From: Loxodes magnus
Taxonomy: Eukaryota; Ciliophora; Karyorelictea; Loxodida; Loxodidae
Reading direction: 5' to 3'
DNA length: 64,000 nt
NCBI GenBank assembly: GCA_946699065.1
Contig: CAMPDV010002398.1
Span: 20,651-84,650 of the forward strand
Shown here piece by piece: positions 6,582 through 37,922 of the stretch (position 1 is the stretch's first letter; the number at the start of each line of letters is the position of its first letter). The notes under the pieces were generated by a model, which was not told the DNA's origin, searched no databases, and was given only the letters and a program-made list of their open reading frames with translations. A program made the position numbers and the translations under genes.

Positions 6582-7457
6582 GGTAATTGAAAGTAATAAT
6601 AGAAAATGAGCAAGAGAGATAAGATTTGTGAGAAAAGTGAAATAGAAAAGCAAGTAAAAGAGTCTGAGTTAGGTAATTGAAAGTAATAATAGAAAATGAG
6701 AAAGAGAGATAAGATTTGTGAGAAAAGTGAAGCAGAAAAGCAAGTAAAAGAGTCTGAGTTAGGTAATTGAAAGTAATAATAGAAAATGAGAAAGAGAGAT
6801 AAGATTTGTGAGAAAAGTGAAGTGGAAAAGTAAGTAAAAGAGTCTGAGTTAGGTAATTGAAAGTAATAATAGAAAATGAGAAAGAGAGATAAGATTTGTG
6901 AGAAAAGTGAAATAGAAAAGCAAGTAAAAGAGTCTGAGTTAGGTAATTGAAAGTAATAATATGAGAGATAAGATTTGTGAGAAAAGTGAAGTAGAAAAGC
7001 AAGTAAAAGAGTCTAAGTGAGGTAATTGAAAGTAATAATAGAAAATGAGAAAGAGAGATAAGATTTGTGAGAAAAGTGAAATAGAAAAGCAAGTAAAAGA
7101 GTCTGAGTTAGGTAATTGAAAGTAATAATAGAAAATGAGAAAGAGAGATAAGATTTGTGAGAAAAGTGAAGCAGAAAAGCAAGTAAAAGAGTCTGAGTTA
7201 GGTAATTGAAAGTAATAATAGAAAATGAGAAAGAGAGATAAGATTTGTGAGAAAAGTGAAGTGGAAAAGTAAGTAAAAGAGTCTGAGTTAGGTAATTGAA
7301 AGTAATAATAGAAAATGAGAAAGAGAGATAAGATTTGTGAGAAAAGTGAAATAGAAAAGCAAGTAAAAGAGTCTGAGTTAGGTAATTGAAAGTAATAATA
7401 TGAGAGATAAGATTTGTGAGAAAAGTGAAGTAGAAAAGCAAGTAAAAGAGTCTAAGT
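6582..7457 (+). repeat. Two tandem copies of a 438/439-bp five-monomer unit
   Basis: The order gaaatag, gaagcag, gaagtgg with gtaag, gaaatag, then a short monomer with gaagtag, followed by the unusual gtctaagtgagg, occurs twice with the marker near 7013 and 7452. The length fits four 90-bp plus one 79-bp monomer (439). A closely related order lies at 1430-1860 and, inverted, near 41.5-41.9 kb. Confidence 0.8.
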
Positions 7458-8239
7458 GAGGTAATTGAAAGTAATAATAGAAAATTAGAAAGAGAGATAA
7501 GATTTGTGAGAAAAGTGAAGTGGAAAAGCAAGTAAAAGAGTCTGAGTTAGGTAATTGAAAGTAATAATAGAAAATTAGAAAGAGAGATAAGATTTGTGAG
7601 AAAAGTGAAGTGGAAAAGTAAGTAAAAGAGTCTGAGTTAGGTAATTGAAAGTAATAATATGAGAGATAAGATTTGTGAGAAAAGTGAAGCAGAAAAGCAA
7701 GTAAAAGAGTCTGAGTTAGGTAATTGAAAGTAATAATAGAAAATGAGAAAGAGAGATAAGATTTGTGAGAAAAGTGAAGTGGAAAAGTAAGTAAAAGAGT
7801 CTGAGTTAGGTAATTGAAAGCAATAATAGAAAATAAGAAAGAGAGATAAGATTTGTGAGAAAAGTGAAGTAGAAAAGCAAGTAAAAGAGTCTGAGTTAGG
7901 TAATTGAAAGTAATTGAAAATGAGCAGGTGAGATGAGATTTGTGAGAAAAGTGAAGTAGAAAAGCAAGTAAAAGAGTCTGAGTTAGGTAATTGAAAGTAA
8001 TAATAGGAAATGAGAAAGAGAGATAAGATTTGTGAGAAAAGTGAAGTGGAAAAGTAAGTAAAAGAGTCTGAGTTAGGTAATTGAAGTAATAATAGAAAAT
8101 GAGAAAGAGAGATAAGATTTGTGAGAAAAGTGAAGTAGAAAAGCAAGTAAAAGAGTCTGAGTTAGGTAATTGAAAGTAATAATAGAAAATGAGAAAGAGA
8201 GATAAGATTTGTGAGAAAAGTGAAGTGGAAAAGTAAGTA

Positions 8240-9770
8240 AAATAGTCTGAGTTAGGTAATTGAAAGTAATAATATGAGAGATAAGATTTGTGAGAAAAGT
8301 GAAGTAGAAAAGCAAGTAAAAGAGTCTGAGTTCGGTAATTGAAAGTAATAATATGAGAGATAAGATTTGTGAGAAAAGTGAAATAGAAAAGCAAGTAAAA
8401 GAGTCTGAGTTAGGTAATTGAAAGTAATAATAGAAAATGAGAAAGAGAGATAAGATTTGTGAGAAAAGTGAAGTAGAAAAGCAAGTAAAAGAGTCTGAGT
8501 TAGGTAATTGAAAGTAATAATATGAGAGATAAGATTTGTGAGAAAAGTGAAGTAGAAAAGTAAGTAAAAGAGTCTGAGTTCGGTAATTGAAAGTAATAAT
8601 ATGAGAGATAAGATTTGTGAGAAAATTGAAGTAGAAAAGCAAGTAAAAGAGTCTGAGTTCGGTAATTGAAAGTAATAATATGAGAGATAAGATTTGTGAG
8701 AAAAGTGAAATAGAAAAGCAAGTAAAAGAGTCTGAGTTCGGTAATTGAAAGTAATAATAGAAAATGAGAAAGAGAGATAAGATTTGTGAGAAAAGTGAAG
8801 TGGAAAAGTAAGTAAAAGAGTCTGAGTTAGGTAATTGAAAGTAATAATAGAAAATGAGAAAGAGAGATAAGATTTGTGAGAAAAGTGAAGTAGAAAAGCA
8901 AGTAAAAGAGTCTGAGTTAGGTAATTGAAAGTAATAATAGAAAATGAGCAAGAGAGATAAGATTTGTGAGAAAAGTGAAGTAGAAAAGCAAGTAAAAGAG
9001 TCTGAGTTAGGTAATTGAAGTAATAATAGAAAATGAGAAAGAGAGATGAGATTTGTGAGAAAAGTGAAGCAGAAAAGCAAGTAAAAGAGTCTGAGTTAGG
9101 TAATTGAAAGTAATAATAGAAAATGAGAAAGAGAGATAAGATTTGTGAGAAAAGTGAAGTGGAAAAGTAAGTAAAAGAGTCTGAGTTCGGTAATTGAAAG
9201 TAATAATAGAAAATGAGAAAGAGAGATAAGATTTGTGAGAAAAGTGAAGTAGAAAAGCAAGTAAAAGAGTCTGAGTTAGGTAATTGAAAGTAATAATATG
9301 AGAGATAAGATTTGTGAGAAAAGTGAAGTAGAAAAGCAAGTAAAAGAGTCTGAGTTCGGTAATTGAAAGTAATAATATGAGAGATAAGATTTGTGAGAAA
9401 AGTGAAGTGGAAAAGCAAGTAAAAGAGTCTGAGTTAGGTAATTGAAAGTAATAATAGAAAATGAGAAAGAGAGATAAGATTTGTGAGAAAAGTGAAATAG
9501 AAAAGCAAGTAAAAGAGTCTGAGTTAGGTAATTGAAAGTAATAATAGAAAATGAGAAAGAGAGATAAGATTTGTGAGAAAATTGAAGTAGAAAAGCAAGT
9601 AAAAGAGTCTGAGTTCGGTAATTGAAAGTAATAATATGAGAGATAAGATTTGTGAGAAAAGTGAAGTAGAAAAGCAAGTAAAAGAGTCTGAGTTCGGTAA
9701 TTGAAAGTAATAATAGAAAATGAGAAAGAGAGATGAGATTTGTGAGAAAAGTGAAGTAGAAAAGCAAGTA
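8240..9770 (+). repeat. Subfamily mixture B, small block
   Basis: It opens with aaaatagtctgag at about 8240, a variant otherwise seen mainly in type B regions. The ttcgg form of the ctgagttagg segment is frequent (near 8331, 8579, 8658, 8740, 9185, 9355, 9615, 9700). The gaaagcaat and caggtgag markers of type A are absent. Confidence 0.65.
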
Positions 9771-9779
9771 AAAGAGTCT

Positions 9780-12140
9780 GAGTTAGGTAATTGAATGTAA
9801 TAATATGAGAGATAAGATTTGTGAGAAAAGTGAAGTAGAAAAGCAAGTAAAAGAGTCTGAGTTAGGTAATTGAATTAATAATAAAAATGAGCAGGTGAGA
9901 TGAGATTTGTGAGAAAAGTGAAGTAGAAAAGCAAGTAAAAGAGTCTGAGTTAGGTAATTGAAAGTAATAATAGAAAATGAGAAAGAGAGATAAGATTTGT
10001 GAGAAAAGTGAAGTAGAAAAGCAAGTAAAAGAGTCTGAGTTAGGTAATTGAAAGTAATAATAGAAAATGAGAAAGAGAGATAAGATTTGTGAGAAAAGTG
10101 AAGTAGAAAAGCAAGTAAAAGAGTCTGAGTTAGGTAATTGAATGTAATAATATGGGAGATAAGATTTGTGAGAAAAGTGAAGTAGAAAAGCAAGTAAAAG
10201 AGTCTGAGTTAGGTAATTGAAAGTAATAATAGAAAATGAGAAAGAGAGATAAGATTTGTGAGAAAAGTGAAGTAGAAAAGCAAGTAAAAGAGTCTGAGTT
10301 AGGTAATTGAAAGTAATAATAGAAAATGAGAAAGAGAGATAAGATTTGTGAGAAAAGTGAAGTAGAAAAGCAAGTAAAAGAGTCTGAGTTAGGTAATTGA
10401 ATGTAATAATATGGGAGATAAGATTTGTGACAAAATTGAAGTAGAAAAGCAAGTAAAAGAGTCTGAGTTCGGTAATTGAAAGTAATAATATGAGAGATAA
10501 GATTTGTGAGAAAAGTGAAGTGAAAAAGTAAGTAAAAGAGTCTGAGTTCGGTAATTGAAAGTAATAATATGAGAGATAAGATTTCTAAGAAAAGTGAAGT
10601 AGAAAAGCAAGTAAAAGAGTCTGAGTTAGGTAATTGAAAGTAATAATATGAGAGATAAGATTTGTGAGAAAAGTGAAGTAGAAAAGCAAGTAAAAGAGTC
10701 TGAGTTAGGTAATTGAAAGTAATAATAGAAAATGAGAAAGAGAGATAAGATTTCTAAGAAAAGTGAAGTAGAAAAGCAAGTAAAAGAGTCTGAGTTAGGT
10801 AATTGAAAGTAATAATATGAGAGATAAGATTTGTGAGAAAAGTGAAGTAGAAAAGCAAGTAAAAGAGTCTGAGTTAGGTAATTGAAAGTAATAATAGAAA
10901 ATGAGAAAGAGAGATAAGATTTGTGAGAAAAGTGAAGTGGAAAAGCAAGTAAAAGAGTCTGAGTTAGGTAATTGAAAGTAATAATAGAAAATTAGAAAGA
11001 GAGATAAGATTTGTGAGAAAAGTGAAATAGAAAAGCAAGTAAAAGAGTCTGAGTTAGGTAATTGAAAGTAATAATATGAGAGATAAGATTTGTGAGAAAA
11101 GTGAAGTAGAAAAGCAAGTAAAAGAGTCTGAGTTAGGTAATTGAAAGTAATAATATGAGAGATAAGATTTGTGAGAAAAGTGAAGTGGAAAAGCAAGTAA
11201 AAGAGTCTGAGTTAGGTAATTGAAAGTAATAATAGAAAATGAGAAAGAGAGATAAGATTTGTGAGAAAAGTGAAGTGGAAAAGCAAGTAAAAGAGTCTGA
11301 GTTAGGTAATTGAAAGTAATAATAGAAAATGAGAAAGAGAGATAAGATTTGTGAGAAAAGTGAAATAGAAAAGCAAGTAAAAGAGTCTGAGTTAGGTAAT
11401 TGAAAGTAATAATAGAAAATGAGAAAGAGAGATAAGATTTGTGAGAAAAGTGAAGTGTAAAAGCAAGTAAAAGAGTCTGAGTTAGGTAATTGAAGTAATA
11501 ATAGAAAATGAGAAAGAGAGATAAGATTTGTGAGAAAAGTGAAGTAGAAAAGCAAGTAAAAGAGTCTGAGTTAGGTAATTGAAAGTAATAATAGAAAATG
11601 AGAAAGAGAGATAAGATTTGTGAGAAAAGTGAAGTAGAAAAGCAAGTAAAAGAGTCTGAGTTAGGTAATTGAATGTAATAATATGGGAGATAAGATTTGT
11701 GACAAAATTGAAGTAGAAAAGCAAGTAAAAGAGTCTGAGTTCGGTAATTGAAAGTAATAATATGAGAGATAAGATTTGTGAGAAAAGTGAAGTGAAAAAG
11801 TAAGTAAAAGAGTCTGAGTTCGGTAATTGAAAGTAATAATATGAGAGATAAGATTTCTAAGAAAAGTGAAGTAGAAAAGCAAGTAAAAGAGTCTGAGTTA
11901 GGTAATTGAAAGTAATAATATGAGAGATAAGATTTGTGAGAAAAGTGAAGTAGAAAAGCAAGTAAAAGAGTCTGAGTTAGGTAATTGAAAGTAATAATAG
12001 AAAATGAGAAAGAGAGATAAGATTTCTAAGAAAAGTGAAGTAGAAAAGCAAGTAAAAGAGTCTGAGTTAGGTAATTGAAAGTAATAATATGAGAGATAAG
12101 ATTTGTGAGAAAAGTGAAGTAGAAAAGCAAGTAAAAGAGT
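9780..12140 (+). repeat. Subfamily mixture A, second block, with 1272-bp duplication
   Basis: Type A markers return: gaatgtaataat near 9795, 10140, 10401 and 11672, caggtgag near 9891, and atttctaag near 10583, 10752, 11851 and 12023. About 10215-10895 is repeated at about 11487-12166. The very rare form gtgacaaaattg at 10428 and 11700 fixes the period at 1272 bp. The second copy ends in the 85-bp hybrid monomer. Confidence 0.8.
10215..10895 (+). repeat. Direct duplication, 1272-bp period, copy 1
   Basis: This matches 11487-12166 monomer by monomer: two long monomers, a gaatgtaataatatggg monomer with gtgacaaaattg, two ttcgg short monomers (the first with gaagtgaaaaag), the atttctaag form, a short, a long with atttctaag, and a short. 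The window-unique gtgac variant makes recent duplication the simplest reading. Confidence 0.85.
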
Positions 12141-12166
12141 CTGAGTTAGGTAATTGAAAGTAATAA
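11487..12166 (+). repeat. Direct duplication, 1272-bp period, copy 2
   Basis: Second copy of 10215-10895. The match ends inside the hybrid monomer 12141-12225, where copy 1 has an ordinary long monomer. A small difference is gaagtaataat in the monomer before the shared start. Confidence 0.85.
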
Positions 12167-12225
12167 TATGAGAAAGAGAGATAAGATTTGTGAGAAAAGT
12201 GAAGTAGAAAAGCAAGTAAAAGAGT
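12141..12225 (+). repeat. 85-bp hybrid monomer
   Basis: It contains taataatatgagaaagagag: the gaaaa of the long form is gone but the second aaagag step is still present. It is exactly the 5-bp-deletion intermediate between the 90-bp and 79-bp classes, or a crossover product between them. I noticed no other copy in the window. Confidence 0.85.
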
Positions 12226-12585
12226 CTGAGTTAGGTAATTGAAAGTAATAATAGAAAATGAGAAAGAGAGATAAGATTTGTGAGAAAAGTGAAATGGAAA
12301 AGCAAGTAAAAGAGTCTGAGTTAGGTAATTGAAAGTAATAATAGAAAATGAGAAAGAGAGATAAGATTTGTGAGAAAAGTGAAATAGAAAAGCAAGTAAA
12401 AGAGTCTGAGTTAGGTAATTGAAAGTAATAATAGAAAATGAGAAAGAGAGATGAGATTTGTGAGAAAAGTGAAGTAGAAAAGCAAGTAAAAGAGTCTGAG
12501 TTAGGTAATTGAAAGTAATAATAGAAAATGAGAAAGAGAGATAAGATTTGTGAGAAAAGTGAAGTGGAAAAGCAAGTAAAAGAGT

Positions 12586-12675
12586 CTGAGTTAGGTAATT
12601 GAAAGTAATAATAGAAAATGAGAAAGAGAGATAAGATTTGTGAGAAAAGTGAAGTAGAAAAGCAAGTAAAAGAGT
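12586..12675 (+). repeat. Reference 90-bp monomer (long class)
   Basis: This copy matches the majority base at every position I compared and can serve as the consensus. It contains 45 A, 24 G, 19 T and only 2 C (in ctgag and gcaag). A-runs of three or four bases recur near positions 18, 31, 39, 61, 74 and 84, roughly multiples of one helical turn, which could favour bending (inference). Common substitutions are ttagg to ttcgg or tgagg, gaagtag to gaaatag, gaagtgg or gaagcag, gcaag to gtaag, atgag to attag, and ataag to atgag in the GAGA core. Confidence 0.9.
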
Positions 12676-12765
12676 CTGAGTTCGGTAATTGAAAGTAATA
12701 ATAGAAAATGAGAAAGAGAGATAAGATTTGTGAGAAAAGTGAAGTAGAAAAGCAAGTAAAAGAGT

Positions 12766-12844
12766 CTGAGTTCGGTAATTGAAAGTAATAATATGAGAGA
12801 TAAGATTTGTGAGAAAAGTGAAGTAGAAAAGCAAGTAAAAGAGT
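12766..12844 (+). repeat. Reference 79-bp monomer (short class)
   Basis: This is a monomer 11 bp shorter than the long class. The taataatag-to-gagagataag section is reduced to taataatatgagagataag; the rest is unchanged. It fits two deletions from the long form, 5 bp (gaaaa) and 6 bp (one aaagag/gagaga step). The short class is abundant in both domains, alone or in runs (for example 13126-13440). Since 79 is not a multiple of 3, each short copy shifts the reading frame of the array. Confidence 0.9.
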
Positions 12845-15800
12845 CTGAGTTAGGTAATTGAAAGTAATAATAGAAAATGAGAAAGAGAGATAAGATTTGT
12901 GAGAAAAGTGAAGTGGAAAAGCAAGTAAAAGAGTCTGAGTTAGGTAATTGAAAGTAATAATAGAAAATGAGAAAGAGAGATAAGATTTGTGAGAAAAGTG
13001 AAGTAGAAAAGCAAGTAAAAGAGTCTGAGTTAGGTAATTGAAAGTAAATAGAAAATGAGAAAGAGAGATAAGATTTGTGAGAAAAGTGAAGTAGAAAAGC
13101 AAGTAAAAGAGTCTGAGTTAGGTAATTGAAAGTAATAATATGAGAGATAAGATTTGTGAGAAAAGTGAAGTAGAAAAGCAAGTAAAAGAGTCTGAGTTCG
13201 GTAATTGAAAGTAATAATATGAGAGATAAGATTTGTGAGAAAAGTGAAGTAGAAAAGCAAGTAAAAGAGTCTGAGTTCGGTAATTGAAAGTAATAATATG
13301 AGAGATAAGATTTGTGAGAAAAGTGAAGTAGAAAAGTAAGTAAAAGAGTCTGAGTTCGGTAATTGAAAGTAATAATATGAGAGATAAGATTTGTGAGAAA
13401 AGTGAAGTAGAAAAGCAAGTAAAAGAGTCTGAGTTAGGTAATTGAAAGTAATAATAGAAAATGAGAAAGAGAGATAAGATTTGTGAGAAAAGTGAAGTAG
13501 AAAAGCAAGTAAAAGAGTCTGAGTTAGGTAATTGAAAGTAATAATAGAAAATGAGAAAGAGAGATAAGATTTGTGAGAAAAGTGAAGTAGAAAAGCAAGT
13601 AAAAGAGTCTGAGTTAGGTAATTGAAAGTAATAATAGAAAATGAGAAATAGAGATAAGATTTGTGAGAAAAGTGAAGTAGAAAAGCAAGTAAAAGAGTCT
13701 GAGTGAGGTAATTGAAAGTAATAATAGAAAATGAGAAAGAGTAGAGATAAGATTTGTGAGAAAAGTGAAGTGAAAAGTAAGTAAAAGAGTCTGAGTGAGG
13801 TAATTGAAAGTAATAATAGAAAATGAGAAAGAGAGATAAGATTTGTGAGAAAAGTGAAGAAAAGCAAGTAAAAGAGTCTGAGTTAGGTAATTGAAAGTAA
13901 TAATAGAAAATGAGAAAGAGAGATAAGATTTGTGAGAAAAGTGAAGTGAAAAGCAAGTAAAAAGTCTGAGTTAGGTAATTGAAGTAATAATAGAAAATGA
14001 GAAAGAGAGATAAGATTTGTGAGAAAAGTGAAGCAGAAAAGCAAGTAAAAGAGTCTGAGGTAATTGAAAGTAATAATAGAAAATGAGAAAGAGAGATAAG
14101 ATTTGTGAGAAAAGTGAAGTGGAAAAGTAAGTAAAAGAGTCTGAGTTCGGTAATTGAAAGTAATAATAGAAAATGAGAAAGAGAGATAAGATTTGTGAGA
14201 AAAGTGAAGTAGAAAAGCAAGTAAAAGAGTCTGAGTTAGGTAATTGAAAGTAATAATATGAGAGATAAGATTTGTGAGAAAAGTGAAGTAGAAAAGCAAG
14301 TAAAAGAGTCTGAGTTCGGTAATTGAAAGTAATAATATGAGAGATAAGATTTGTGAGAAAAGTGAAGTGGAAAAGCAAGTAAAAGAGTCTGAGTTAGGTA
14401 ATTGAAAGTAATAATAGAAAATGAGAAAGAGAGATAAGATTTGTGAGAAAAGTGAAATAGAAAAGCAAGTAAAAGAGTCTGAGTTAGGTAATTGAAAGTA
14501 ATAATAGAAAATGAGAAAGAGAGATAAGATTTGTGAGAAAAGTGAAGTAGAAAAGCAAGTAAAAGAGTCTGAGTTAGGTAATTGAAGTAATAATAGAAAA
14601 TGAGAAAGAGAGATAAGATTTGTGAGAAAAGTGAAATAGAAAAGCAAGTAAAAGAGTCTGAGTTCGTTAATTGAAAGTAATAATAGAAAATGAGAAAGAG
14701 AGATAAGATTTGTGAGAAAAGTGAAGTAGAAAAGCAAGTAAAAGAGTCTGAGTGAGGTAATTGAAAGTAATAATAGAAAATTAGAAAGAGAGATAAGATT
14801 TGTGAGAAAAGTGAAGTGGAAAAGCAAGTAAAAGAGTCTGAGTTAGGTAATTGAAAGTAATAATAGAAAATGAGAAAGAGAGATAAGATTTGTGAGAAAA
14901 GTGAAATAGAAAAGCAAGTAAAAGAGTCTGAGTTCGGTAATTGAAAGTAATAATAGAAAATGAGAAAGAGAGATAAGATTTGTGAGAAAAGTGAAATAGA
15001 AAAGCAAGTAAAAGAGTCTGAGTTAGGTAATTGAAAGTAATAATAGAAAATGAGAAAGAGAGATAAGATTTGTGAGAAAAGTGAAATAGAAAAGTAAGTA
15101 AAAGAGTCTGAGTTAGGTAATTGAAAGTAATAATAGAAAATGAGAAAGAGAGATAAGATTTGTGAGAAAAGTGAAGTAGAAAAGCAAGTAAAAGAGTCTG
15201 AGTTAGGTAATTGAAGTAATAATAGAAAATGAGAAAGAGAGATGAGATTTGTGAGAAAAGTGAAGTGGAAAAGCAAGTAAAAGAGTCTGAGTTAGGTAAT
15301 TGAAAGTAATAATAGAAAATGAGAAAGAGAGATAAGATTTGTGAGAAAAGTGAAGTGGAAAAGTAAGTAAAAGAGTCTGAGTTCGGTAATTGAAAGTAAT
15401 AATAGAAAATGAGAAAGAGAGATAAGATTTGTGAGAAAAGTGAAGTAGAAAAGCAAGTAAAAGAGTCTGAGTTCGGAAATTGAAAGTAATAATATGAGAG
15501 ATAAGATTTGTGAGAAAAGTGAAGCAGAAAAGCAAGTAAAAGAGTCTGAGTTAGGTAATTGAAAGTAATAATAGAAAATGAGAAAGAGAGATAAGATTTG
15601 TGAGAAAAGTGAAATAGAAAAGCAAGTAAAAGAGTCTGAGTTCGGTAATTGAAAGTAATAATAGAAAATGAGAAAGAGAGATAAGATTTGTGAGAAAAGT
15701 GAAGTGGAAAAGTAAGTAAAAGAGTCTGAGTTAGGTAATTGAAAGTAATAATAGAAAATGAGAAAGAGAGATAAGATTTGTGAGAAAAGTGAAATAGAAA

Positions 15801-18104
15801 AGCAAGTAAAAGAGTCTGAGTTCGGTAATTGAAAGTAATAATAGAAAATGAGAAAGAGAGATAAGATTTGTGAGAAAAGTGAAGTAGAAAAGCAAGTAAA
15901 AGAGTCTGAGTTAGGTAATTGAAAGTAATAATAGAAAATGAGAAAGAGAGATAAGATTTGTGAGAAAAGTGAAGCAGAAAAGCAAGTAAAAGAGTCTGAG
16001 TTAGGTAATTGAAAGTAATAATAGAAAATGAGAAAGAGAGATAAGATTTGTGAGAAAAGTGAAGTGGAAAAGTAAGTAAAAGAGTCTGAGTTCGGTAATT
16101 GAAAGTAATAATAGAAAATGAGAAAGAGAGATAAGATTTGTGAGAAAAGTGAAGTGGAAAAGTAAGTAAAATAGTCTGAGTTAGGTAATTGAAAGTAATA
16201 ATATGAGAGATAAGATTTGTGAGAAAAGTGAAGTAGAAAAGCAAGTAAAAGAGTCTGAGTTCGGTAATTGAAAGTAATAATAGAAAATGAGAAAGAGAGA
16301 TAAGATTTGTGAGAAAAGTGAAGTAGAAAAGCAAGTAAAAGAGTCTGAGTTAGGTAATTGAAGTAATAATAGAAAATGAGAAAGAGAGATGAGATTTGTG
16401 AGAAAAGTGAAGCAGAAAAGCAAGTAAAAGAGTCTGAGTTAGGTAATTGAAAGTAATAATAGAAAATGAGAAAGAGAGATAAGATTTGTGAGAAAAGTGA
16501 AATAGAAAAGCAAGTAAAAGAGTCTGAGTTCGGTAATTGAAAGTAATAATAGAAAATGAGAAAGAGAGATAAGATTTGTGAGAAAAGTGAAGTAGAAAAG
16601 CAAGTAAAAGAGTCTGAGTTAGGTAATTGAAGTAATAATAGAAAATGAGAAAGAGAGATGAGATTTGTGAGAAAAGTGAAGCAGAAAAGCAAGTAAAAGA
16701 GTCTGAGTTAGGTAATTGAAAGTAATAATAGAAAATGAGAAAGAGAGATAAGATTTGTGAGAAAAGTGAAGTAGAAAAGCAAGTAAAAGAGTCTGAGTTA
16801 GGTAATTGAAAGTAATAATAGAAAATGAGAAAGAGAGATAAGATTTGTGAGAAAAGTGAAATAGAAAAGCAAGTAAAAGAGTCTGAGTTAGGTAATTGAA
16901 AGTAATAATAGAAAATGAGAAAGAGAGATAAGATTTGTGAGAAAAGTGAAGTGGAAAAGTAAGTAAAAGAGTCTGAGTTAGGTAATTGAAAGTAATAATA
17001 GAAAATGAGAAAGAGAGATAAGATTTGTGAGAAAAGTGAAGTGGAAAAGTAAGTAAAAGAGTCTGAGTTAGGTAATTGAAAGTAATAATAGAAAATGAGA
17101 AAGAGAGATAAGATTTGTGAGAAAAGTGAAATAGAAAAGCAAGTAAAAGAGTCTGAGTTCGGAAATTGAAAGTAATAATATGAGAGATAAGATTTGTGAG
17201 AAAAGTGAAGTAGAAAAGCAAGTAAAAGAGTCTAAGTGAGGTAATTGAAAGTAATAATAGAAAATGAGAAAGAGAGATAAGATTTGTGAGAAAAGTGAAG
17301 TGGAAAAGCAAGTAAAAGAGTCTGAGTTAGGTAATTGAAAGTAATAATAGAAAATGAGAAAGAGAGATAAGATTTGTGAGAAAAGTGAAGTAGAAAAGCA
17401 AGTAAAATAGTCTGAGTTAGGTAATTGAAAGTAATAATAGAAAATGAGAAAGAGAGATAAGATTTGTAAGAAAAGTGAAATAGAAAAGCAAGTAAAAGAG
17501 TCTGAGTGAGGTAATTGAAAGTAATAATAGAAAATTAGAAAGAGAGATAAGATTTGTGAGAAAAGTGAAGTGGAAAAGTAAGTAAAAGAGTCTGAGTTAG
17601 GTAATTGAAAGTAATAATAGAAAATGAGAAAGAGAGATAAGATTTGTGAGAAAAGTGAAATAGAAAAGCAAGTAAAAGAGTCTGAGTTAGGTAATTGAAA
17701 GTAATAATAGAAAATGAGAAAGAGAGATAAGATTTGTGAGAAAAGTGAAGTAGAAAAGCAAGTAAAAGAGTCTGAGTTAGGTAATTGAAAGTAATAATAG
17801 AAAATGAGAAAGAGAGATAAGATTTGTGAGAAAAGTGAAGTAGAAAAGCAAGTAAAAGAGTCTGAGTTAGGTAATTGAAAGTAATAATATGAGAGATAAG
17901 ATTTGTGAGAAAAGTGAAGTAGAAAAGCAAGTAAAAGAGTCTGAGTTCGGTAATTGAAAGTAATAATATGAGAGATAAGATTTGTGAGAAAAGTGAAGTA
18001 GAAAAAGTAAGTAAAAGAGTCTGAGTTCGGTAATTGAAAGTAATAATATGAGAGATAAGATTTGTGAGAAAAGTGAAGTGGAAAAGCAAGTAAAAGAGTC
18101 TGAG

Positions 18105-18200
18105 TTAGGTAATTGAAAGTAATAATAGAAAATGAGAAAAAAGAGAGATAAAAAGATTTGTAAGAAAAGTGAAATAGAAAAGCAAGTAAAAGAGTCTGAG
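18105..18200 (+). repeat. Monomer with A-run expansions
   Basis: The GAGA core reads gagaaaaaagagagataaaa and is followed by agatttgtaag, so extra bases have been added at two A-runs in one monomer. It lies about 400 bp from the orientation switch and is the only expansion of this kind in the left domain. Confidence 0.75.
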
Positions 18201-18410
18201 TGAGGTAATTGAAAGTAATAATAGAAAATTAGAAAGAGAGATAAGATTTGTGAGAAAAGTGAAGTAGAAAAGTAAGTAAAAGAGTCTGAGTTAGGTAATT
18301 GAAAGTAATAATAGAAAATGAGAAAGAGAGATAAGATTTGTGAGAAAAGTGAAATAGAAAAGCAAGTAAAAGAGTCTGAGTTAGGTAATTGAAAGTAATA
18401 ATAGAAAATG

Positions 18411-18747
18411 AGAAAGAGAGATAAGATTTGTGAGAAAAGTGAATTGGAAAAGTAAGTAAAAGAGTCTGAGTTAGGTAATTGAAAGTAATTATAGAAAATG
18501 AGAAAGAGAGATAAGATTTGTGAGAAAAGTGAATAGAAAAGCAAGTAAAAGAGTCTGAGTTAGGTAATTGAAAGTATTATTACTTTCAATTACCTAACTC
18601 AGACTCTTTTACTTGCTTTTCTATTTCACTTTTCTCACAAATCTTATCTCTCTTTCTCATTTTCTATAATTACTTTCAATTACCTAACTCAGACTCTTTT
18701 ACTTACTTTTCCAATTCACTTTTCTCACAAATCTTATCTCTCTTTCT
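18411..18747. repeat. Palindrome at the orientation switch
   Basis: The left arm is 18411-18576 (166 bp) and the right arm 18581-18747 (167 bp), with loop ttat at 18577-18580. The arms are identical except for one A (gaatag left, gaaatag right). Both carry two rare variants in register: aattatag instead of aataatag, and gaattgg instead of gaagtgg. Outside the arms the order of variants on the two sides differs (atgag left against attag right at the first mismatch). The shared rare variants mean one arm was copied from the other; this is not a chance meeting of two arrays. Confidence 0.92.
18575..18580. other. Inversion breakpoint with TA overlap
   Basis: The left array reads normally through gaaagta (to 18576), where ataatag should follow. 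The right array reads normally from tattattac (starting at 18575). The two share the bases TA at 18575-18576. A 2-bp overlap with a very short loop fits template switching or end-joining at a fold-back (inference). The breakpoint falls inside the AT-rich taataata block of the monomer. Confidence 0.85.
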
Positions 18748-21656
18748 AATTTTCTATTATTACTTTCAATTACCTCACTCAGACTCTTTTACTTGCTTTT
18801 CTACTTCACTTTTCTCACAAATCTTATCTCTCATATTATTACTTTCAATTACCTAACTCAGACTCTTTTACTTGCTTTTCTACTTCACTTTTCTCACAAA
18901 TCTTATCTCTCTTTCTAATTTTCTATTATTACTTTCAATTACCTCACTCAGACTCTTTACTTGCTTTTCTACTTCACTTTTCTCACAAATCTTATCTCTC
19001 ATATTATTACTTTCAATTACCGAACTCAGACTCTTTTACTTGCTTTTCTACTTCACTTTTCTCACAAATCTTATCTCTCATATTATTACTTTCAATTACC
19101 TAACTCAGACTCTTTTACTTGCTTTTCTACTTCACTTTTCTTAGAAATCTTATCTCTCATATTATTACTTTCAATTACCGAACTCAGACTCTTTTACTTA
19201 CTTTTTCACTTCACTTTTCTCACAAATCTTATCTCTCATATATTACTTTCAATTACCGAACTCAGACTCTTTTACTTGCTTTTCTACTTCACTTTTCTCA
19301 CAAATCTTATCTCTCATATTATTACTTTCGATTACCGAACTCAGACTCTTTTACTTGCTTTTCTACTTCACTTTTCTCACAAATCTTATCTCTCATATTA
19401 TTACTTTCAATTACCTAACTCAGACTCTTTTACTTGCTTTTCTACTTCACTTTTCTCACAAATCTTATCTCTCTTTCTCATTTCTATTATTACTTTCAAT
19501 TACCTAACTCAGACTCTTTTACTTGCCTTTTCTACTTCACTTTTCTCACAAATCTTATCTCTCTTTCTCATTTTCTATTATTACTTTCAATTACCTAACT
19601 CAGACTATTTTACTTGCTTTTCCACTTCACTTTTCTCACAAATCTTATCTCTCATATTATTACTTTCAATTACCGAACTCAGACTCTTTTACTTGCTTTT
19701 CTACTTCACTTTTCTCACAAATCTTATCTCTCATATTAGTACTTTCAATTACCTAACTCAGACTCTTTTACTTGCTTTTCTATTTCACTTTTCTCACAAA
19801 TCTTATCTCTCTTTCTCATTTTCTATTATTACTTTCAATTACCTAACTCAGACTCTTTTACTTGCTTTTCTACTTCACTTTTCTCACAAATCTTATCTCT
19901 CTTTCTCATTTTCTATTATTACTTTCAATTACCTCACTCAGACTCTTTTACTTGCTTTTCTATTTCACTTTTCGCACAAATCTTATCTCTCTTTCTCATT
20001 TTCTATTATTACTTTCAATTACCTAACTCAGACTATTTACTTGCTTTTCCACTTCACTTTTCTCACAAATCTTATCTCTCTTTCTCATTTTCTATTATTA
20101 CTTTCAATTACCTAACTCAGACTCTTTTACTTGCTTTTCCACTTCACTTTTCTCACAAATCTTATCTCTCTTTCTAATTTTCTATTATTACTTTCAATTA
20201 CCGAACTCAGACTCTTTTACTTGCTTTTCTACTTCACTTTTCTCACAAATCTTATCTCTCATATTATTACTTTCAATTACCTAACTCAGACTCTTTTACT
20301 TGCTTTTCTATTTCACTTTTCTCACAAATCTTATCTCTCTTTCTCATTTTCTATTATTACTTTCAATTACCTCACTCAGACTCTTTTACTTGCTTTTCTA
20401 CTTCACTTTTCTCACAAATCTTATCTCTCTTTCTCATTTTCTATTATTACTTTCAATTACCTAACTCAGACTCTTTTACTTACTTTTCCACTTCACTTTT
20501 CTCACAAATCTTATCTCTCTTTCTCATTTTCTATTATTACTTTCAATTACCTAACTCAGACTCTTTTACTTGCTTTTCTATTTTACTTTTCTCACAAATC
20601 TTATCTCTCTTTCTCATTTTCTATTATTACTTTCAATTACCTAACTCAGACTCTTTTACTTGCTTTTCTACTTCACTTTTCTCACAAATCTTATCTCTCA
20701 TATTATTACTTTCAATTACCGAACTCAGACTCTTTTACTTACTTTTCCACTTCACTTTTCTCACAAATCTTATCTCTCATATTATTACTTTCAATTACCG
20801 AACTCAGACTCTTTTACTTGCTTTTCTACTTCACTTTTCTCACAAATCTTATCTCTCATATTATTACTTTCAATTACCTAACTCAGACTCTTTTACTTGC
20901 TTTTCTACTTCACTTTTCTCACAAATCTTATCTCTCTTTCTCATTTTCTATTATTACTTTCAATTACCTCACTCAGACTCTTTTACTTACTTTTCTACTT
21001 CACTTTTCTCACAAATCTTATCTCTCTTTCTCATTTTCTATTATTACTTTCAATTACCTCACTCAGACTCTTTTACTTGCTTTTCCACTTCACTTTTCTC
21101 ACAAATCTTATCTCTCTTTCTCATTTTCTATTATTACTTTCAATTACCTAACTCAGACTCTTTTACTTGCTTTTCTACTTCACTTTTCTCACAAATCTTA
21201 TCTCTCTTTCTAATTTTCTATTATTACTTTCAATTACCTAACTCAGACTCTTTTACTTGCTTTTCTATTTCACTTTTCTCACAAATCTTATCTCTCTTTC
21301 TCATTTTCTATTATTACTTTCAATTACCGAACTCAGAATCTTTTACTTGCTTTTCTACTTCACTTTTCTCACAAATCTTATCTCTCTTTCTCATTTTCTA
21401 TTATTACTTTCAATTACCGAACTCAGACTCTTTTACTTGCTTTTCTACTTCACTTTTCTCACAAATCTTATCTCTCTTTCTCATTTTCTATTATTACTTT
21501 CAATTACCTAACTCAGACTCTTTTACTTGCTTTTCCACTTCACTTTTCTCACAAATCTTATCTCTCTTTCTAATTTTCTATTATTACTTCAATTACCTAA
21601 CTCAGACTCTTTTACTTGCTTTTCTACTTCACTTTTCTCACAAATCTTATCTCTCA
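18575..21656 (-). repeat. 3.08-kb higher-order repeat, copy 1
   Basis: About 35 monomers whose variant order is repeated in the next 3.08 kb. Shared points are ccaattcac (18711, 21793, 24871), cttagaaatc in a short monomer (19141, 22223, 25300) and tcgattaccgaac (19328, 22411, 25488). Also shared are the ctttttcacttcac form and agactatttt. Spacing is about 3082 between copies 1 and 2 and about 3077-3078 between 2 and 3. Copy 1 begins exactly at the breakpoint. Private changes are catatatt near 19239, ttcgcac near 19973 and cagaatc near 21336. Confidence 0.9.
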
Positions 21657-24600
21657 TATTATTACTTTCAATTACCTAACTCAGACTCTTTTACTTGCTT
21701 TTCTATTTCACTTTTCTCACAAATCTTATCTCTCTTTCTCATTTTCTATAATTACTTTCAATTACCTAACTCAGACTCTTTTACTTACTTTTCCAATTCA
21801 CTTTTCTCACAAATCTTATCTCTCTTTCTAATTTTCTATTATTACTTTCAATTACCTCACTCAGACTCTTTTACTTGCTTTTCTACTTCACTTTTCTCAC
21901 AAATCTTATCTCTCATATTATTACTTTCAATTACCTAACTCAGACTCTTTTACTTGCTTTTCTACTTCACTTTTCTCACAAATCTTATCTCTCTTTCTAA
22001 TTTTCTATTATTACTTTCAATTACCTCACTCAGACTCTTTTACTTGCTTTTCTACTTCACTTTTCTCACAAATCTTATCTCTCATATTATTACTTTCAAT
22101 TACCGAACTCAGACTCTTTTACTTGCTTTTCTACTTCACTTTTCTCACAAATCTTATCTCTCATATTATTACTTTCAATTACCTAACTCAGACTCTTTAC
22201 TTGCTTTTCTACTTCACTTTTCTTAGAAATCTTATCTCTCATATTATTACTTTCAATTACCGAACTCAGACTCTTTTACTTACTTTTTCACTTCACTTTT
22301 CTCACAAATCTTATCTCTCATATTATTACTTTCAATTACCGAACTCAGACTCTTTTACTTGCTTTTCTACTTCACTTTTCTCACAAATCTTATCTCTCAT
22401 ATTATTACTTTCGATTACCGAACTCAGACTCTTTTACTTGCTTTTCTACTTCACTTTTCTCACAAATCTTATCTCTCATATTATTACTTTCAATTACCTA
22501 ACTCAGACTCTTTTACTTGCTTTTCTACTTCACTTTTCTCACAAATCTTATCTCTCTTTCTCATTTTCTATTATTACTTTCAATTACCTAACTCAGACTC
22601 TTTTACTTGCTTTTCTACTTCACTTTTCTCACAAATCTTATCTCTCTTTCTCATTTTCTATTATTACTTTCAATTACCTAACTCAGACTATTTTACTTGC
22701 TTTTCCACTTCACTTTTCTCACAAATCTTATCTCTCATATTATTACTTTCAATTACCGAACTCAGACTCTTTACTTGCTTTTCTACTTCACTTTTCTCAC
22801 AAATCTTATCTCTCATATTATTACTTTCAATTACCTAACTCAGACTCTTTTACTTGCTTTTCTATTTCACTTTTCTCACAAATCTTATCTCTCTTTCTCA
22901 TTTTCTATTATTACTTTCAATTACCTAACTCAGACTCTTTTACTTGCTTTTCTACTTCACTTTTCTCACAAATCTTATCTCTCTTTCTCATTTTCTATTA
23001 TTACTTTCAATTACCTCACTCAGACTCTTTTACTTGCTTTTCTATTTCACTTTTCTCACAAATCTTATCTCTCTTTCTCATTTTCTATTATTACTTTCAA
23101 TTACCTAACTCAGACTATTTTACTTGCTTTTCCACTTCACTTTTCTCACAAATCTTATCTCTCTTTCTCATTTCTATTATTACTTTCAATTACCTAACTC
23201 AGACTCTTTTACTTGCTTTTCCACTTCACTTTTCTCACAAATCTTATCTCTCTTTCTAATTTTCTATTATTACTTTCAATTACCGAACTCAGACTCTTTA
23301 CTTGCTTTTCTACTTCACTTTTCTCACAAATCTTATCTCTCATATTATTACTTCAATTACCTAACTCAGACTCTTTTACTTGCTTTTCTATTTCACTTTT
23401 CTCACAAATCTTATCTCTCTTTCTCATTTTCTATTATTACTTTCAATTACCTCACTCAGACTCTTTTACTTGCTTTTCTACTTCACTTTTCTCACAAATC
23501 TTATCTCTCTTTCTCATTTTCTATTATTACTTTCAATTACCTAACTCAGACTCTTTTACTTACTTTTCCACTCACTTTTCTCACAAATCTTATCTCTCTT
23601 TCTCATTTTCTATTATTACTTTCAATACCTAACTCAGACTCTTTTACTTGCTTTTCTATTTTACTTTTCTCACAAATCTTATCTCTCTTTCTCATTTTCT
23701 ATTATTACTTTCAATTACCTAACTCAGACTCTTTTACTTGCTTTTCTACTTCACTTTTCTCACAAATCTTATCTCTCATATTATTACTTTCAATTACCGA
23801 ACTCAGACTCTTTTACTTACTTTTCCACTTCACTTTTCTCACAAATCTTATCTCTCATATTATTACTTTCAATTACCGAACTCAGACTCTTTTACTTGCT
23901 TTTCTACTTCACTTTTCTCACAAATCTTATCTCTCATATTATTACTTTCAATTACCTAACTCAGACTCTTTTACTTGCTTTTCTACTTCACTTTTCTCAC
24001 AAATCTTATCTCTCTTTCTCATTTTCTATTATTACTTTCAATTACCTCACTCAGACTCTTTTACTTACTTTTCTACTTCACTTTTCTCACAAATCTTATC
24101 TCTCTTTCTCATTTTCTATTATTACTTTCAATTACCTCACTCAGACTCTTTTACTTGCTTTTCCACTTCACTTTTCTCACAAATCTTATCTCTCTTTCTC
24201 ATTTCTATTATTACTTTCAATTACCTAACTCAGACTCTTTTACTTACTTTTCCACTTCACTTTTCTCACAAATCTTATCTCTCTTTCTAATTTTCTATTA
24301 TTACTTTCAATTACCTAACTCAGACTCTTTTACTTGCTTTTCTATTTCACTTTTCTCACAAATCTTATCTCTCTTTCTCATTTTCTATTATTACTTTCAA
24401 TTACCGAACTCAGACTCTTTTACTTGCTTTTCTACTTCACTTTTCTCACAAATCTTATCTCTCTTTCTCATTTTCTATTATTACTTTCAATTACCGAACT
24501 CAGACTCTTTTACTTGCTTTTCTACTTCACTTTTCTCACAAATCTTATCTCTCTTTCTCATTTTCTATTATTACTTTCAATTACCTAACTCAGACTCTTT

Positions 24601-24734
24601 TACTTGCTTTTCCACTTCACTTTTCTCACAAATCTTATCTCTCTTTCTAATTTTCTATTATTACTTTCAATTACCTAACTCAGACTCTTTTACTTGCTTT
24701 TCTACTTCACTTTTCTCACAAATCTTATCTCTCA
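21657..24734 (-). repeat. 3.08-kb higher-order repeat, copy 2
   Basis: Follows copy 1 head to tail with the same variant order to its end. Open frames of identical length recur at the repeat spacing (20660-20881 with 23738-23959; 21616-21831 with 24694-24909). Private changes include single-base losses near 23350, 23573 and 23625 and an acttacttttccac monomer near 24240 where copy 1 has acttgcttttctac. Confidence 0.9.
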
Positions 24735-26520
24735 TATTATTACTTTCAATTACCTAACTCAGACTCTTTTACTTGCTTTTCTATTTCACTTTTCTCACAA
24801 ATCTTATCTCTCTTTCTCATTTTCTATAATTACTTTCAATTACCTAACTCAGACTCTTTTACTTACTTTTCCAATTCACTTTTCTCACAAATCTTATCTC
24901 TCTTTCTAATTTTCTATTATTACTTTCAATTACCTCACTCAGACTCTTTTACTTGCTTTTCTACTTCACTTTTCTCACAAATCTTATCTCTCATATTATT
25001 ACTTTCAATTACCTAACTCAGACTCTTTTACTTGCTTTTCTACTTCACTTTTCTCACAAATCTTATCTCTCTTTCTAATTTTCTATTATTACTTTCAATT
25101 ACCTCACTCAGACTCTTTTACTTGCTTTTCTACTTCACTTTCTCACAAATCTTATCTCTCATATTATTACTTTCAATTACCGAACTCAGACTCTTTACTT
25201 GCTTTTCTACTTCACTTTTCTCACAAATCTTATCTCTCATATTATTACTTTCAATTACCTAACTCAGACTCTTTTACTTGCTTTTCTACTTCACTTTTCT
25301 TAGAAATCTTATCTCTCATATTATTACTTTCAATTACCGAACTCAGACTCTTTTACTTACTTTTTCACTTCACTTTTCTCACAAATCTTATCTCTCATAT
25401 TATTACTTTCAATTACCGAACTCAGACTCTTTTACTTGCTTTTCTACTTCACTTTTCTCACAAATCTTATCTCTCATATTATTACTTTCGATTACCGAAC
25501 TCAGACTCTTTTACTTGCTTTTCTACTTCACTTTTCTCACAAATCTTATCTCTCATATTATTACTTTCAATTACCTAACTCAGACTCTTTTACTTGCTTT
25601 TCTACTTCACTTTTCTCACAAATCTTATCTCTCTTCTCATTTTCTATTATTACTTTCAATTACCTAACTCAGACTCTTTTACTTGCTTTTCTACTTCACT
25701 TTTCTCACAAATCTTATCTCTCTTTCTCATTTTCTATTATTACTTTCAATTACCTAACTCAGACTATTTTACTTGCTTTTCCACTTCACTTTTCTCACAA
25801 ATCTTATCTCTCATATTATTACTTTCAATTACCGAACTCAGACTCTTTTACTTGCTTTTCTACTTCACTTTTCTCACAAATCTTATCTCTCATATTATTA
25901 CTTTCAATTACATAACTCAGACTCTTTTACTTGCTTTTCTATTTCACTTTTCTCACAAATCTTATCTCTCTTTCTCATTTTCTATTATTACTTTCAATTA
26001 CCTAACTCAGACTCTTTTATTGCTTTTCTACTTCACTTTTCTCACAAATCTTATCTCTCTTTCTCATTTTCTATTATTACTTTCAATTACCTCACTCAGA
26101 CTCTTTTACTTGCTTTTCTATTTCACTTTTCTCACAAATCTTATCTCTCTTTCTCATTTTCTATTATTACTTTCAATTACCTAACTCAGACTATTTTACT
26201 TGCTTTTCCACTTCACTTTTCTCACAAATCTTATCTCTCTTTCTCATTTTCTATTATTACTTTCAATTACCTAACTCAGACTCTTTTACTTGCTTTTCCA
26301 CTTCACTTTTCTCACAAATCTTATCTCTCTTTCTAATTTTCTATTATTACTTTCAATTACCGAACTCAGACTCTTTTACTTGCTTTTCTACTTCACTTTT
26401 CTCACAAATCTTATCTCTCATATTATTACTTTCAATTACCTAACTCAGACTCTTTTACTTGCTTTTCTATTTCACTTTTCTCACAAATCTTATCTCTCTT
26501 TCTCATTTTCTATTATTACT
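24735..26520 (-). repeat. 3.08-kb higher-order repeat, partial copy 3
   Basis: The order of copies 1 and 2 is followed for about 1.8 kb, including ccaattcac at 24871, cttagaaatc at 25300, tcgattaccgaac at 25488 and two agactatttt monomers (25764, 26191). It then drops one monomer relative to copy 2 and the correspondence is lost near 26520, so the third copy is truncated by recombination with another block. Confidence 0.85.
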
Positions 26521-27059
26521 TTCAATTACCTAACTCAGACTCTTTTACTTACTTTTCCACTTCACTTTTCTCACAAATCTTATCTCTCTTTCTCATTTTC
26601 TATTATTACTTTCAATTACCTTACTCAGACTCTTTTACTTGCTTTTCTATTTCACTTTTCTCACAAATCTTATCTCTCTTTCTCATTTTCTATTATTACT
26701 TTCAATTACCTAACTCAGACTCTTTTACTTGCTTTTCCACTTCACTTTTCTCACAAATCTTATCTCTCTTTCTAATTTTCTATTATTACTTTCAATTACC
26801 TAACTCAGACTCTTTTACTTGCTTTTCTACTTCACTTTTCTCACAAATCTTATCTCTCTTTCTAATTTTCTATTATTACTTTCAATTACCGAACTCAGAC
26901 TCTTTTACTTGCTTTTCTACTTCACTTTTCTCACAAATCTTATCTCTCATATTATTACTTTCAATTACCTAACTCAGACTCTTTTACTTGCTTTTCTATT
27001 TCACTTTTCTCACAAATCTTATCTCTCTTTCTCATTTTCTATTATTACTTTCAATTACC

Positions 27060-27650
27060 GAACTCAGACTCTTTTACTTGCTTTTCCACTTCACTTTTCT
27101 CACAAATCTTATCTCTCATATTATTACTTTCAATTACCGAACTCAGACTCTTTTACTTGCTTTTCTACTTCACTTTTCTCACAAATCTTATCTCTCATAT
27201 TATTACTTTTCAATTACCTAACTCAGACTCTTTTACTTGCTTTTCTACTTCACTTTTCTCACAAATCTTATCTCTCTTTCTCATTTTCTATTATTACTTT
27301 CAATTACCTAACTCAGACTCTTTTACTTACTTTTTCACTTCACTTTTCTCACAAATCTTATCTCTCATATTATTACTTTCAATTACCGAACTCAGACTCT
27401 TTTACTTGCTTTTCTACTTCACTTTTCTCACAAATCTTATCTCTCATATTATTACTTTCGATTACCGAACTCAGACTCTTTTACTTGCTTTTCTACTTCA
27501 CTTTTCTCACAAATCTTATCTCTCATATTATTACTTTCAATTACCTAACTCAGACTCTTTTACTTGCTTTTCCACTTCACTTTTCTCACAAATCTTATCT
27601 CTCTTTCTCATTTTCTATTATTACTTTCAATTACCTTACTCAGACTCTTT
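27060..27650 (-). repeat. Direct duplication, 1.45-kb period, copy 1
   Basis: Order: ccac, short, ccgaactc, short, long, then ctttttcacttcac (27329), short, ccgaactc, short, tcgattaccgaac (27458), short and a ccac monomer. The same order starts near 28510, with markers at 28779 and 28907 (spacing 1449-1450). Confidence 0.75.
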
Positions 27651-28509
27651 TACTTGCTTTTCTATTTCACTTTTCTCACAAATCTTATCTCTCTTTCTCA
27701 TTTTCTATTATTACTTTCGATTACCGAACTCAGACTCTTTACTTGCTTTTCTACTTCACTTTTCTCACAAATCTTATCTCTCTTTCTAATTTTCTATTAT
27801 TACTTTCAATTACCTAACTCAGACTCTTTTACTTGCTTTTCTACTTCACTTTCTCACAAATCTTATCTCTCATATTATTACTTTCAATTACCTAACTCAG
27901 ACTCTTTTACTTGCTTTTCTATTTCACTTTTCTCACAAATCTTATCTCTCTTTCTCATTTTCTATTATTACTTTCAATTACCTAACTCAGACTCTTTTAC
28001 TTACTTTTCCACTTCACTTTTCTCACAAATCTTATCTCTCTTTCTCATTTTCTATTATTACTTTCAATTACCTTACTCAGACTCTTTTACTTGCTTTTCT
28101 ATTTCACTTTTCTCACAAATCTTATCTCTCTTTCTCATTTTCTATTATTACTTTCAATTACCTAACTCAGACTCTTTTACTTGCTTTTCCACTTCACTTT
28201 TCTCACAAATCTTATCTCTCTTTCTAATTTTCTATTATTACTTTCAATTACCGAACTCAGACTCTTTTACTTGCTTTTCTACTTCACTTTTCTCACAAAT
28301 CTTATCTCTCTTTCTAATTTTCTATTATTACTTTCAATTACCGAACTCAGACTCTTTTACTTGCTTTTCTACTTCACTTTTCTCACAAATCTTATCTCTC
28401 ATATTATTACTTTCAATTACCTAACTCAGACTCTTTTACTTGCTTTTCTATTTCACTTTTCTCACAAATCTTATCTCTCTTTCTCATTTTCTATTATTAC
28501 TTCAATTAC

Positions 28510-29100
28510 CTAACTCAGACTCTTTTACTTGCTTTTCCACTTCACTTTTCTCACAAATCTTATCTCTCATATTATTACTTTCAATTACCGAACTCAGACT
28601 CTTTTACTTGCTTTTCTACTTCACTTTTCTCACAAATCTTATCTCTCATATTATTACTTTCAATTACCTAACTCAGACTCTTTTACTTGCTTTTCTATTT
28701 CACTTTTCTCACAAATCTTATCTCTCTTTCTCATTTTCTATTATTACTTTCAATTACCTAACTCAGACTCTTTTACTTACTTTTTCACTTCACTTTTCTC
28801 ACAAATCTTATCTCTCATATTATTACTTTCAATTACCGAACTCAGACTCTTTTACTTGCTTTTCTACTTCACTTTTCTCACAAATCTTATCTCTCATATT
28901 ATTACTTTCGATTACCGAACTCAGACTCTTTTACTTGCTTTTCTACTTCACTTTTCTCACAAATCTTATCTCTCATATTATTACTTTCAATTACCTCACT
29001 CAGACTCTTTTACTTGCTTTTCCACTTCACTTTTCTCACAAATCTTATCTCTCTTTCTCATTTTCTATTATTACTTTCAATTACCTAACTCAGACTCTTT
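28510..29100 (-). repeat. Direct duplication, 1.45-kb period, copy 2
   Basis: Second copy of 27060-27650. Differences include ctatttcac in place of ctacttcac in one monomer and cctcactc in place of cctaactc near 28993. Part of the block is itself shared with the 3.08-kb unit (same ctttttcac to tcgattacc order), so it probably arose by unequal exchange from that unit (inference). Confidence 0.72.
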
Positions 29101-32100: not shown

Positions 32101-32625
32101 TTCAATTACCTAACTCAGACTATTTTACTTGCTTTTCTACTTCACTTTTCTCACAAATCTTATCTCTCTTTCTCATTTTCTATTATTACTTTCAATTACC
32201 TAACTCAGACTCTTTTACTTGCTTTTCCACTTCACTTTTCTCACAAATCTTATCTCTCTTTCTAATTTTCTATTATTACTTTCAATTACCTCACTCAGAC
32301 TCTTTTACTTGCTTTTCTACTTCACTTTTCTCACAAATCTTATCTCTCATATTATTACTTTCAATTACCTAACTCAGACTCTTTTACTTGCTTTTCTATT
32401 TCACTTTTCTCACAAATCTTATCTCTCTTTCTCATTTTCTATTATTACTTTCAATTACCTAACTCAGACTCTTTTACTTACTTTTCCACTTCACTTTTCT
32501 CACAAATCTTATCTCTCTTTCTCATTTTCTATTATTACTTTCAATTACCTAACTCAGACTCTTTACTTGCTTTTCTACTTCACTTTTCTTAGAAATCTTA
32601 TCTCTCTTTCTCATTTTCTATTATT

Positions 32626-34659: not shown

Positions 34660-35340
34660 TTTCACTTTTCTCACAAATCTTATCTCTCTTTCTCATTTTC
34701 TATTATTACTTTCAATTACCTAACTCAGACTCTTTTACTTACTTTTCCACTTCACTTTTCTCACAAATCTTATCTCTCTTTCTCATTTTCTATTATTACT
34801 TTCAATTACCTAACTCAGACTCTTTTACTTGCTTTTCTACTTCACTTTTCTTAGAAATCTTATCTCTCTTTCTCATTTTCTATTATTACTTTCAATTACC
34901 TAACTCAGACTCTTTTACTTGCTTTTCTACTTCACTTTTCTCACAAATCTTATCTCTCTTTCTCATTTTCTATTATTACTTTCAATTACCTAACTCAGAC
35001 TCTTTTACTTGCTTTTCTACTTCACTTTTCTCACAAATCTTATCTCTCATATTATTACTTTCAATTACCTAACTCAGACTCTTTTACTTGCTTTTCTATT
35101 TCACTTTTCTCACAAATCTTATCTCTCTTTCTCATTTTCTATTATTACTTTCAATTACCTAACTCAGACTCTTTTACTTACTTTTCCACTTCACTTTTCT
35201 CACAAATCTTATCTCTCTTTCTCATTTTCTATTATTACTTTCAATTACCTAACTCAGACTCTTTTACTTGCTTTTCTACTTCACTTTTCTTAGAAATCTT
35301 ATCTCTCTTTCTCATTTTCTATTATTACTTTCAATTACCT
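34570..35340 (-). repeat. 439-bp local repeat
   Basis: The order short, ctatttcac, acttacttttccac, then ctacttcac with cttagaaatc occurs at 34570-34854 and 35009-35293, 439 bp apart (four 90-bp plus one 79-bp monomer), with identical translations. A related third run lies at 35560-35820 without the cttag form. Confidence 0.82.
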
Positions 35341-37881: not shown

Positions 37882-37922
37882 CTTCACTTTTCTCACAAAT
37901 CTTATCTCTCTTTCTCATTTTC

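Follow-up and report, generated by a model that had tools for sequence, protein, structure and literature searches.

A near-perfect palindrome at an orientation switch in an AT-rich satellite points to local inverted copying

Foldback inversions have been described in yeast, where the accessible text reports short loops, with a median of 3-4 nt, in cells lacking SAE2 or MRE11 function and larger loops, with a median of 36 nt, in cells with intact MRE11 and SAE2; it states a minimum of 4 bp for the foldback stems and places loops below 15 nt in the short-loop class (PMC7467729). For human inverted duplications, the available part of the source gives 2-bp inverted microhomology at 7 of 13 junctions, within a range of 2-8 bp, and describes the duplications as large, with spacers of mostly a few kb (PMC3907307). 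Satellites with opposed orientations form a second group of related systems. The inversion sites of Tribolium madens are predicted to form hairpins with stems of 58 and 98 bp in a repeat deriving from an element of ~110 bp, and the accessible portion of that paper states that macro-dyad symmetries are documented only in Tribolium (PMC13081366). Additionally, forward and reverse satellite strands are shown in the available excerpt on Brachypodium (PMC10910784), and recombination between inverted centromere repeats is treated in the accessible part of a review (PMC10813616).

We analyzed a stretch of 64,000 nt, hereafter the window, which consists as a whole of a single AT-rich tandem repeat (satellite) with a GC content of ~0.29 and a very strong purine/pyrimidine strand bias. 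The monomers are ~90 bp long, or 79 bp without an 11-bp piece, and splitting at an anchor yielded 736 monomers, 298 of them distinct. The GC skew is ~+0.83 over 1-18 kb and ~-0.83 over 19-64 kb, and orientation-specific words change strand once, between 18563 and 18575, with the single strand flip of the window at 18576/18577. The opposite subarrays of this one satellite span at least 18.6 kb and at least 45.4 kb, each running off the window (Table 1). Long stop-free frames were seen; however, stop codons are scarce in the pyrimidine strand for reasons of composition, and the 79-bp monomers break the frame. The protein-coding reading was dropped by this composition and frame argument alone. 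Searches with two monomer words found no match in viral_contigs and genome_contigs, which contain viral, bacterial, and archaeal sequence, five sequence words had no match in the literature searched, and the palindrome described below had none among plasmids and phages. One-base indels per monomer amount to 0.63-1.28 in the five 4-kb bins of 44000-64000, and to 0.15-0.38 in 10 of the 11 bins below 44 kb, the exception being the bin of 28-32 kb with 0.59; the excess could be due to lower consensus quality or older sequence. Another recent direct copy, with a period of ~3.13 kb, is formed by 43381-45202 and 46514-48334 (98.7%).

Table 1 Coordinates of the satellite arrays, the palindrome, and the repeat copies in the 64-kb window.
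Feature	Positions	Strand	Remarks
Left satellite array	1..18576	+	purine-rich strand on top; ~90 + 79 bp monomers; TRF row 1-18576, GC skew, no internal flip
Right satellite array	18577..64000	-	pyrimidine-rich strand on top; tandem repeat search, GC skew, strand words
Left arm	18411..18576	+	166 nt; GAATTGG at 18441 (private base 18444), AATTATAG at 18487; one A fewer than right arm
Right arm	18581..18747	-	167 nt; sequence identical to starts of other two 3.08-kb copies
Loop	18577..18580		4 nt, TTAT; site of strand flip
TA common to both sides	18575..18576		2 bp; sequence at three repeat starts and array edges
Generic stretch, ordinary left array rejoined in register	18411..18443	+	122 copies on +, 237 on -
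3.08-kb repeat copy 1	18575..21656	-	left end cut by flip; 18575-23568 vs 21657-26647 direct match, 99.3%
3.08-kb repeat copy 2	21657..24734	-	direct match
3.08-kb repeat copy 3, partial	24735..26858	-	18575-20699 vs 24735-26858, 98.9%
4.35-kb segment	1010..5360	+	matches 37923-42270 in inverted orientation; no substitution, 5 one-base indels
Inverted partner of 1010-5360	37923..42270	-	0 substitutions, 5 one-base indels

The flip lies at the center of a near-perfect palindrome. Global alignment of the left arm with the reverse complement of the right arm gives one gap and 0 substitutions, in agreement with the initial annotation, which had read two arms of 166 and 167 bp, a 4-nt loop, and a difference of a single A. 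The gap reflects one A too few in an AAA run of the left arm, where GTGAATAGAAAAG occurs as its one copy in the window; since all three right copies, whose first 200 nt are identical, have the A-containing form, the left-arm state is the odd one. We took the right arm as the presumptive template state, on the ground that the same sequence opens the other two 3.08-kb copies. At the center, the left side ends with ...GAAAGTA and the right side starts with TATTATTAC, as in copies 2 and 3, and the TA at 18575-18576 is common to the two, which upholds the 2-bp overlap proposed earlier for the breakpoint. This TA may have served as the priming microhomology. Folded as DNA, the 337 nt form a single hairpin with a 4-nt loop at -186.5 kcal/mol (mean of 100 shuffles, -33.7), a folding energy that simply restates the palindrome. 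A diverged, unusually long monomer (18093-18188, 96 bp, with extra A runs) is found a few monomers to the left of the flip.

Two variants within the arms are otherwise confined to the right 3.08-kb repeats, as had been noticed along with their in-register positions and as window-wide word positions confirm. Specifically, AATTATAG is found on the + strand at 18487 only and its complement at 18664, 21746, and 24824 only, while GAATTGG is found on the + strand at 18441 only and its complement at 18711, 21793, and 24871 only. In the 18.6 kb of the left array each variant has a single copy, beside the flip; the right array has three copies of each, near the starts of the 3.08-kb copies. A single base separates each variant from a common form, so the evidence amounts to two private bases; the common forms, GTGAAGTGG and AGTAATAATAG, have 43 and 126 copies and 140 and 324 copies, respectively, on the two strands. 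Among 370 right dimers, the three 3.08-kb copies are nearest to the left arm with 1 edit, and the next follows at 3 edits. Among 181 left dimers, the junction dimer is nearest to the right arm with 1 edit and three others stand at 2; its margin over the other left dimers is one edit only, resting on the two private bases, and these three dimers elsewhere count against a fold-back origin.

Any head-to-head join in a satellite yields an imperfect palindrome. When 300 random left/right head-to-head joins were simulated, their arms differed by a median of 9.5 edits over 166 nt; the number of joins within 12 edits was 185, within 2 edits 11, and within 1 edit 4. An offset of at most 4, a measure that is meaningful only for joins with at most 12 edits, was found in 3 of the 300 joins, and together with at most 1 edit in none of them; the real junction has 1 edit and an offset of 4. 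At most 1 edit was likewise seen in 24 of 4000 random left-right dimer pairs. Because random joins are already so alike, near-perfect arms as such weigh less, and it is the private bases together with the tiny loop that carry the argument beyond chance. The same figures bear on an ordinary end-joining inversion, in which the variants would be shared by chance or come from unseen 3.08-kb copies in the left array. The left array does continue beyond the window, and end joining, too, commonly shows a 2-bp microhomology; however, both private bases occur a single time in the left array, beside the flip, the combination of identity and loop was matched by no random join, and opposed repeat copies should stay alike past 166 nt but diverge. 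We therefore regard such an inversion as highly improbable.

The outer edge of the copied tract is less sharp than its center. The first mismatch of the arm falls at 18410 against all three right copies, and beyond the arms 80-nt mirror windows differ by 1 to 19 edits (background mean 5.5), so that the divergence of variant order claimed for this region holds. Since 18411-18443 is generic, the copied tract may end anywhere from 18411 to 18444, which gives a length of 133-166 nt, and its outer end has no scar and no sharp breakpoint. Over the last 4.3 kb of the left array, the nearest right-array match in the window is 3-15 edits away per 360-nt window. Past the arm, this part of the left array has no near-identical inverted counterpart in the right array of the window, so that the fold-back reading has to assume a second switch, which would be scarless and lie at the outer edge. 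The initial annotation had suggested a fold-back or template switch with about 170 bp copied in reverse. It is upheld in part: the private bases, the 4-nt loop, and the TA overlap support the view that right-array sequence was copied locally, in inverted orientation, onto the left side, as far as sequence comparison can indicate. The tract is to be set at the shorter length above, and the near-perfect arms count for less than was assumed.

The start of the 3.08-kb series coincides exactly with the flip. Had the series arisen later than the flip, its left end must have landed within ~90 bp of the flip by chance, given that copies 2 and 3 share the private bases, unless the hairpin itself provoked the amplification. 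A series formed first and a flip second appears to be the simpler order, in which case the flip would be no older than repeats that are 98.9-99.3% alike. The three identical repeat starts are indistinguishable by sequence as templates. A flip that cuts the series at its first copy is what a break or a stalled strand in the right array, resolved at this point, would be expected to leave.

As the best explanation, we propose a fold-back of the leftward-growing strand of the right array, which would have copied its own 133-166 nt and then ordinary satellite, and we give this reading about an even chance of being correct. The sequence itself shows the two arms with their loop, the shared TA, the private bases, the exit in register, and only one flip. 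In this reading, a replication or repair strand, namely the purine-rich one of the right array, would extend leftward up to ...GAAAGTAATAATA, and its terminal TA would pair with the TA six bases upstream, leaving the 4-nt loop. The polymerase would then extend on its own strand over the length of the tract, so that the resulting left arm would carry both private bases of the 3.08-kb repeat. On leaving the hairpin, the strand would continue in register on ordinary, oppositely oriented satellite and so form the left array. The A missing from the AAA run of the left arm would have been lost or miscalled. Copying from right to left is the simpler direction, since the right-arm variants recur in two other 3.08-kb copies and are present once each in the left array; this direction, the priming stem, a single event, and a real junction are all inferred. 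The weak points of the fold-back reading are the second switch, the 2-bp stem, and the larger loops of yeast with intact MRE11 and SAE2.

The left arm passes into ordinary left array without losing register, and nothing there betrays a second non-homologous join. This is also what would be expected if an older flip, made by any mechanism and with imperfect arms, was later corrected by a template switch across the hairpin that replaced 133-166 nt of the left arm by right-arm sequence. Any flip in this satellite creates such a quasi-palindrome, as the large share of simulated joins with at most 12 edits illustrates. This quasi-palindrome correction fits almost as well as the fold-back and is its closest rival; we consider it possible, while leaning against it. 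An independent flip would have to meet within 4 nt of the mirror phase, as 3 of the 300 simulated joins did, but this objection is weak, with our own phase-only estimate at about one in ten. A tract of 133-166 nt seems long for a template-switch correction. Both readings share the template-switch step and differ in the timing of the flip, and they are indistinguishable on one assembled haplotype; because the private bases trace the copied sequence, the two models make different, checkable predictions.

The junction sequence is known here from the assembly alone, and fold-back reads and inverted chimeras are known library errors. The inverted join could have arisen from a chimeric or folded-back read, or from two satellite contigs wrongly joined, in a region that kilobase-long, near-identical repeats in both orientations make hard to assemble. 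We consider such an artefact fairly unlikely, since arm identity ends after 166 nt and the flanks differ, so that a second switch would be needed as well, and the arms of a simple fold-back read should equal its folded part in length.

Copying between orientations appears to have occurred at the kilobase scale as well, over tens of kilobases if it took place in cis, as judged from the 4.35-kb inverted pair in Table 1. The indels of this pair all lie in runs (left copy, +3 A and +1 G; right copy, +1 A). The left edge of the block coincides with an odd monomer of ~55 bp (~968-1022), and a scar is visible at 960-1022, where this short monomer contains a AAAAGCAAGTA-like piece twice; the opposite edge is in register on both sides, with monomer types that differ. 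A window-wise check, in which four 200-nt windows beyond the scar had 0, 1, 0, and 3 edits, hinted that the copy continues past 1010 to the window edge. We do not claim this: the collinear match of 1-965 is no better than matches elsewhere (97.4% collinear by direct alignment, 97.7% to the right array, and 97.8% to another left segment). In the right array, 32620-34958 and 35841-38179 form a tandem copy with a period of 3.22 kb (99.4% over 2.34 kb) that crosses the edge of the block, and a left duplication and this tandem copy both cross the same edge. A mirror of the whole array about the flip was rejected, the axis of the 4.35-kb pair being near 21640 and not 18578. Deleting two 3.08-kb copies (6160 bp) would move this axis to within ~17 bp of the flip; we treat the near-fit as a coincidence, because the 4.3 kb left of the flip are not mirror-identical and the 3.22-kb tandem copy spoils the sum.

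The evidence for both arrays as one pool is mixed. Outside the 4.35-kb block, left 360-nt windows have a median of 6 edits to the right array and 6 to the rest of the left array (n = 151; 45 nearer to the right, 57 nearer to the left, 49 tied), and right windows (n = 449) have a median of 5 edits to the right array versus 9 to the left; the right array, being 2.4 times longer, is favored as a target in both comparisons. The flip could be viewed as a working part of satellite evolution, in which the head-to-head junction would allow opposite arrays to pair in cis, kilobase tracts would cross orientations, and the arms would be renewed by fold-back synthesis that keeps the center palindromic; we think this unlikely. 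If it were true and the host is not a Tribolium beetle, macro-dyad organization would extend beyond that genus. The 4.35-kb inverted copy suggests that a strand flip need not stop exchange between array halves.

Comparison with the accessible texts on foldback inversions reveals the same inverted arms, short spacer, and arm copied from adjoining sequence, together with a putative short inverted microhomology at the loop edge (PMC7467729, PMC3907307). The 4-nt loop fits the short-loop class of less than 15 nt in the available yeast account (PMC7467729), and the 2-bp TA is within the human range of 2-8 bp (PMC3907307) but under the 4-bp minimum for yeast stems (PMC7467729). Copying of the arm from adjacent sequence is seen here in the two private bases shared only with the adjoining 3.08-kb repeat type. 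In the foldback class the inverted copy extends up to a second rearrangement; here it ends in the generic stretch, where a second switch would be implied that leaves no scar. Unlike the human duplications, which the excerpt describes as large with spacers of mostly a few kb, the present copy is no longer than 166 nt and runs in register into more of the same satellite, with a spacer of 4 nt (PMC3907307).

The macro-dyad satellite of Tribolium madens likewise presents one satellite in two opposite subarrays with a hairpin-prone inversion site; as far as the available text goes, its sites number thousands of conserved copies with one facing subunit diverged, whereas this window has one site with near-identical arms (PMC13081366). 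Arabidopsis centromere satellite arrays also have orientation switches and inverted stretches, for which the accessible part of the paper gives no base-level junction (PMC9757041). Quasi-palindrome template-switch mutation resembles the present case in that template switching extends the identity of inverted arms, but, according to the accessible text, it acts on pre-existing imperfect repeats, and a pre-existing flip is here only a possibility (PMC3820800). A base-level fold-back scar at a satellite orientation switch was not found in the literature searched, in the portions available, which marks the limit of the search and is no proof of absence. Orientation reversals of satellites are already known from Arabidopsis and Tribolium, and the present case is a clear example, not a new kind. 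In the accessible literature, orientation switches are reported without their base-level origin; the private bases at this flip indicate what was copied from where.
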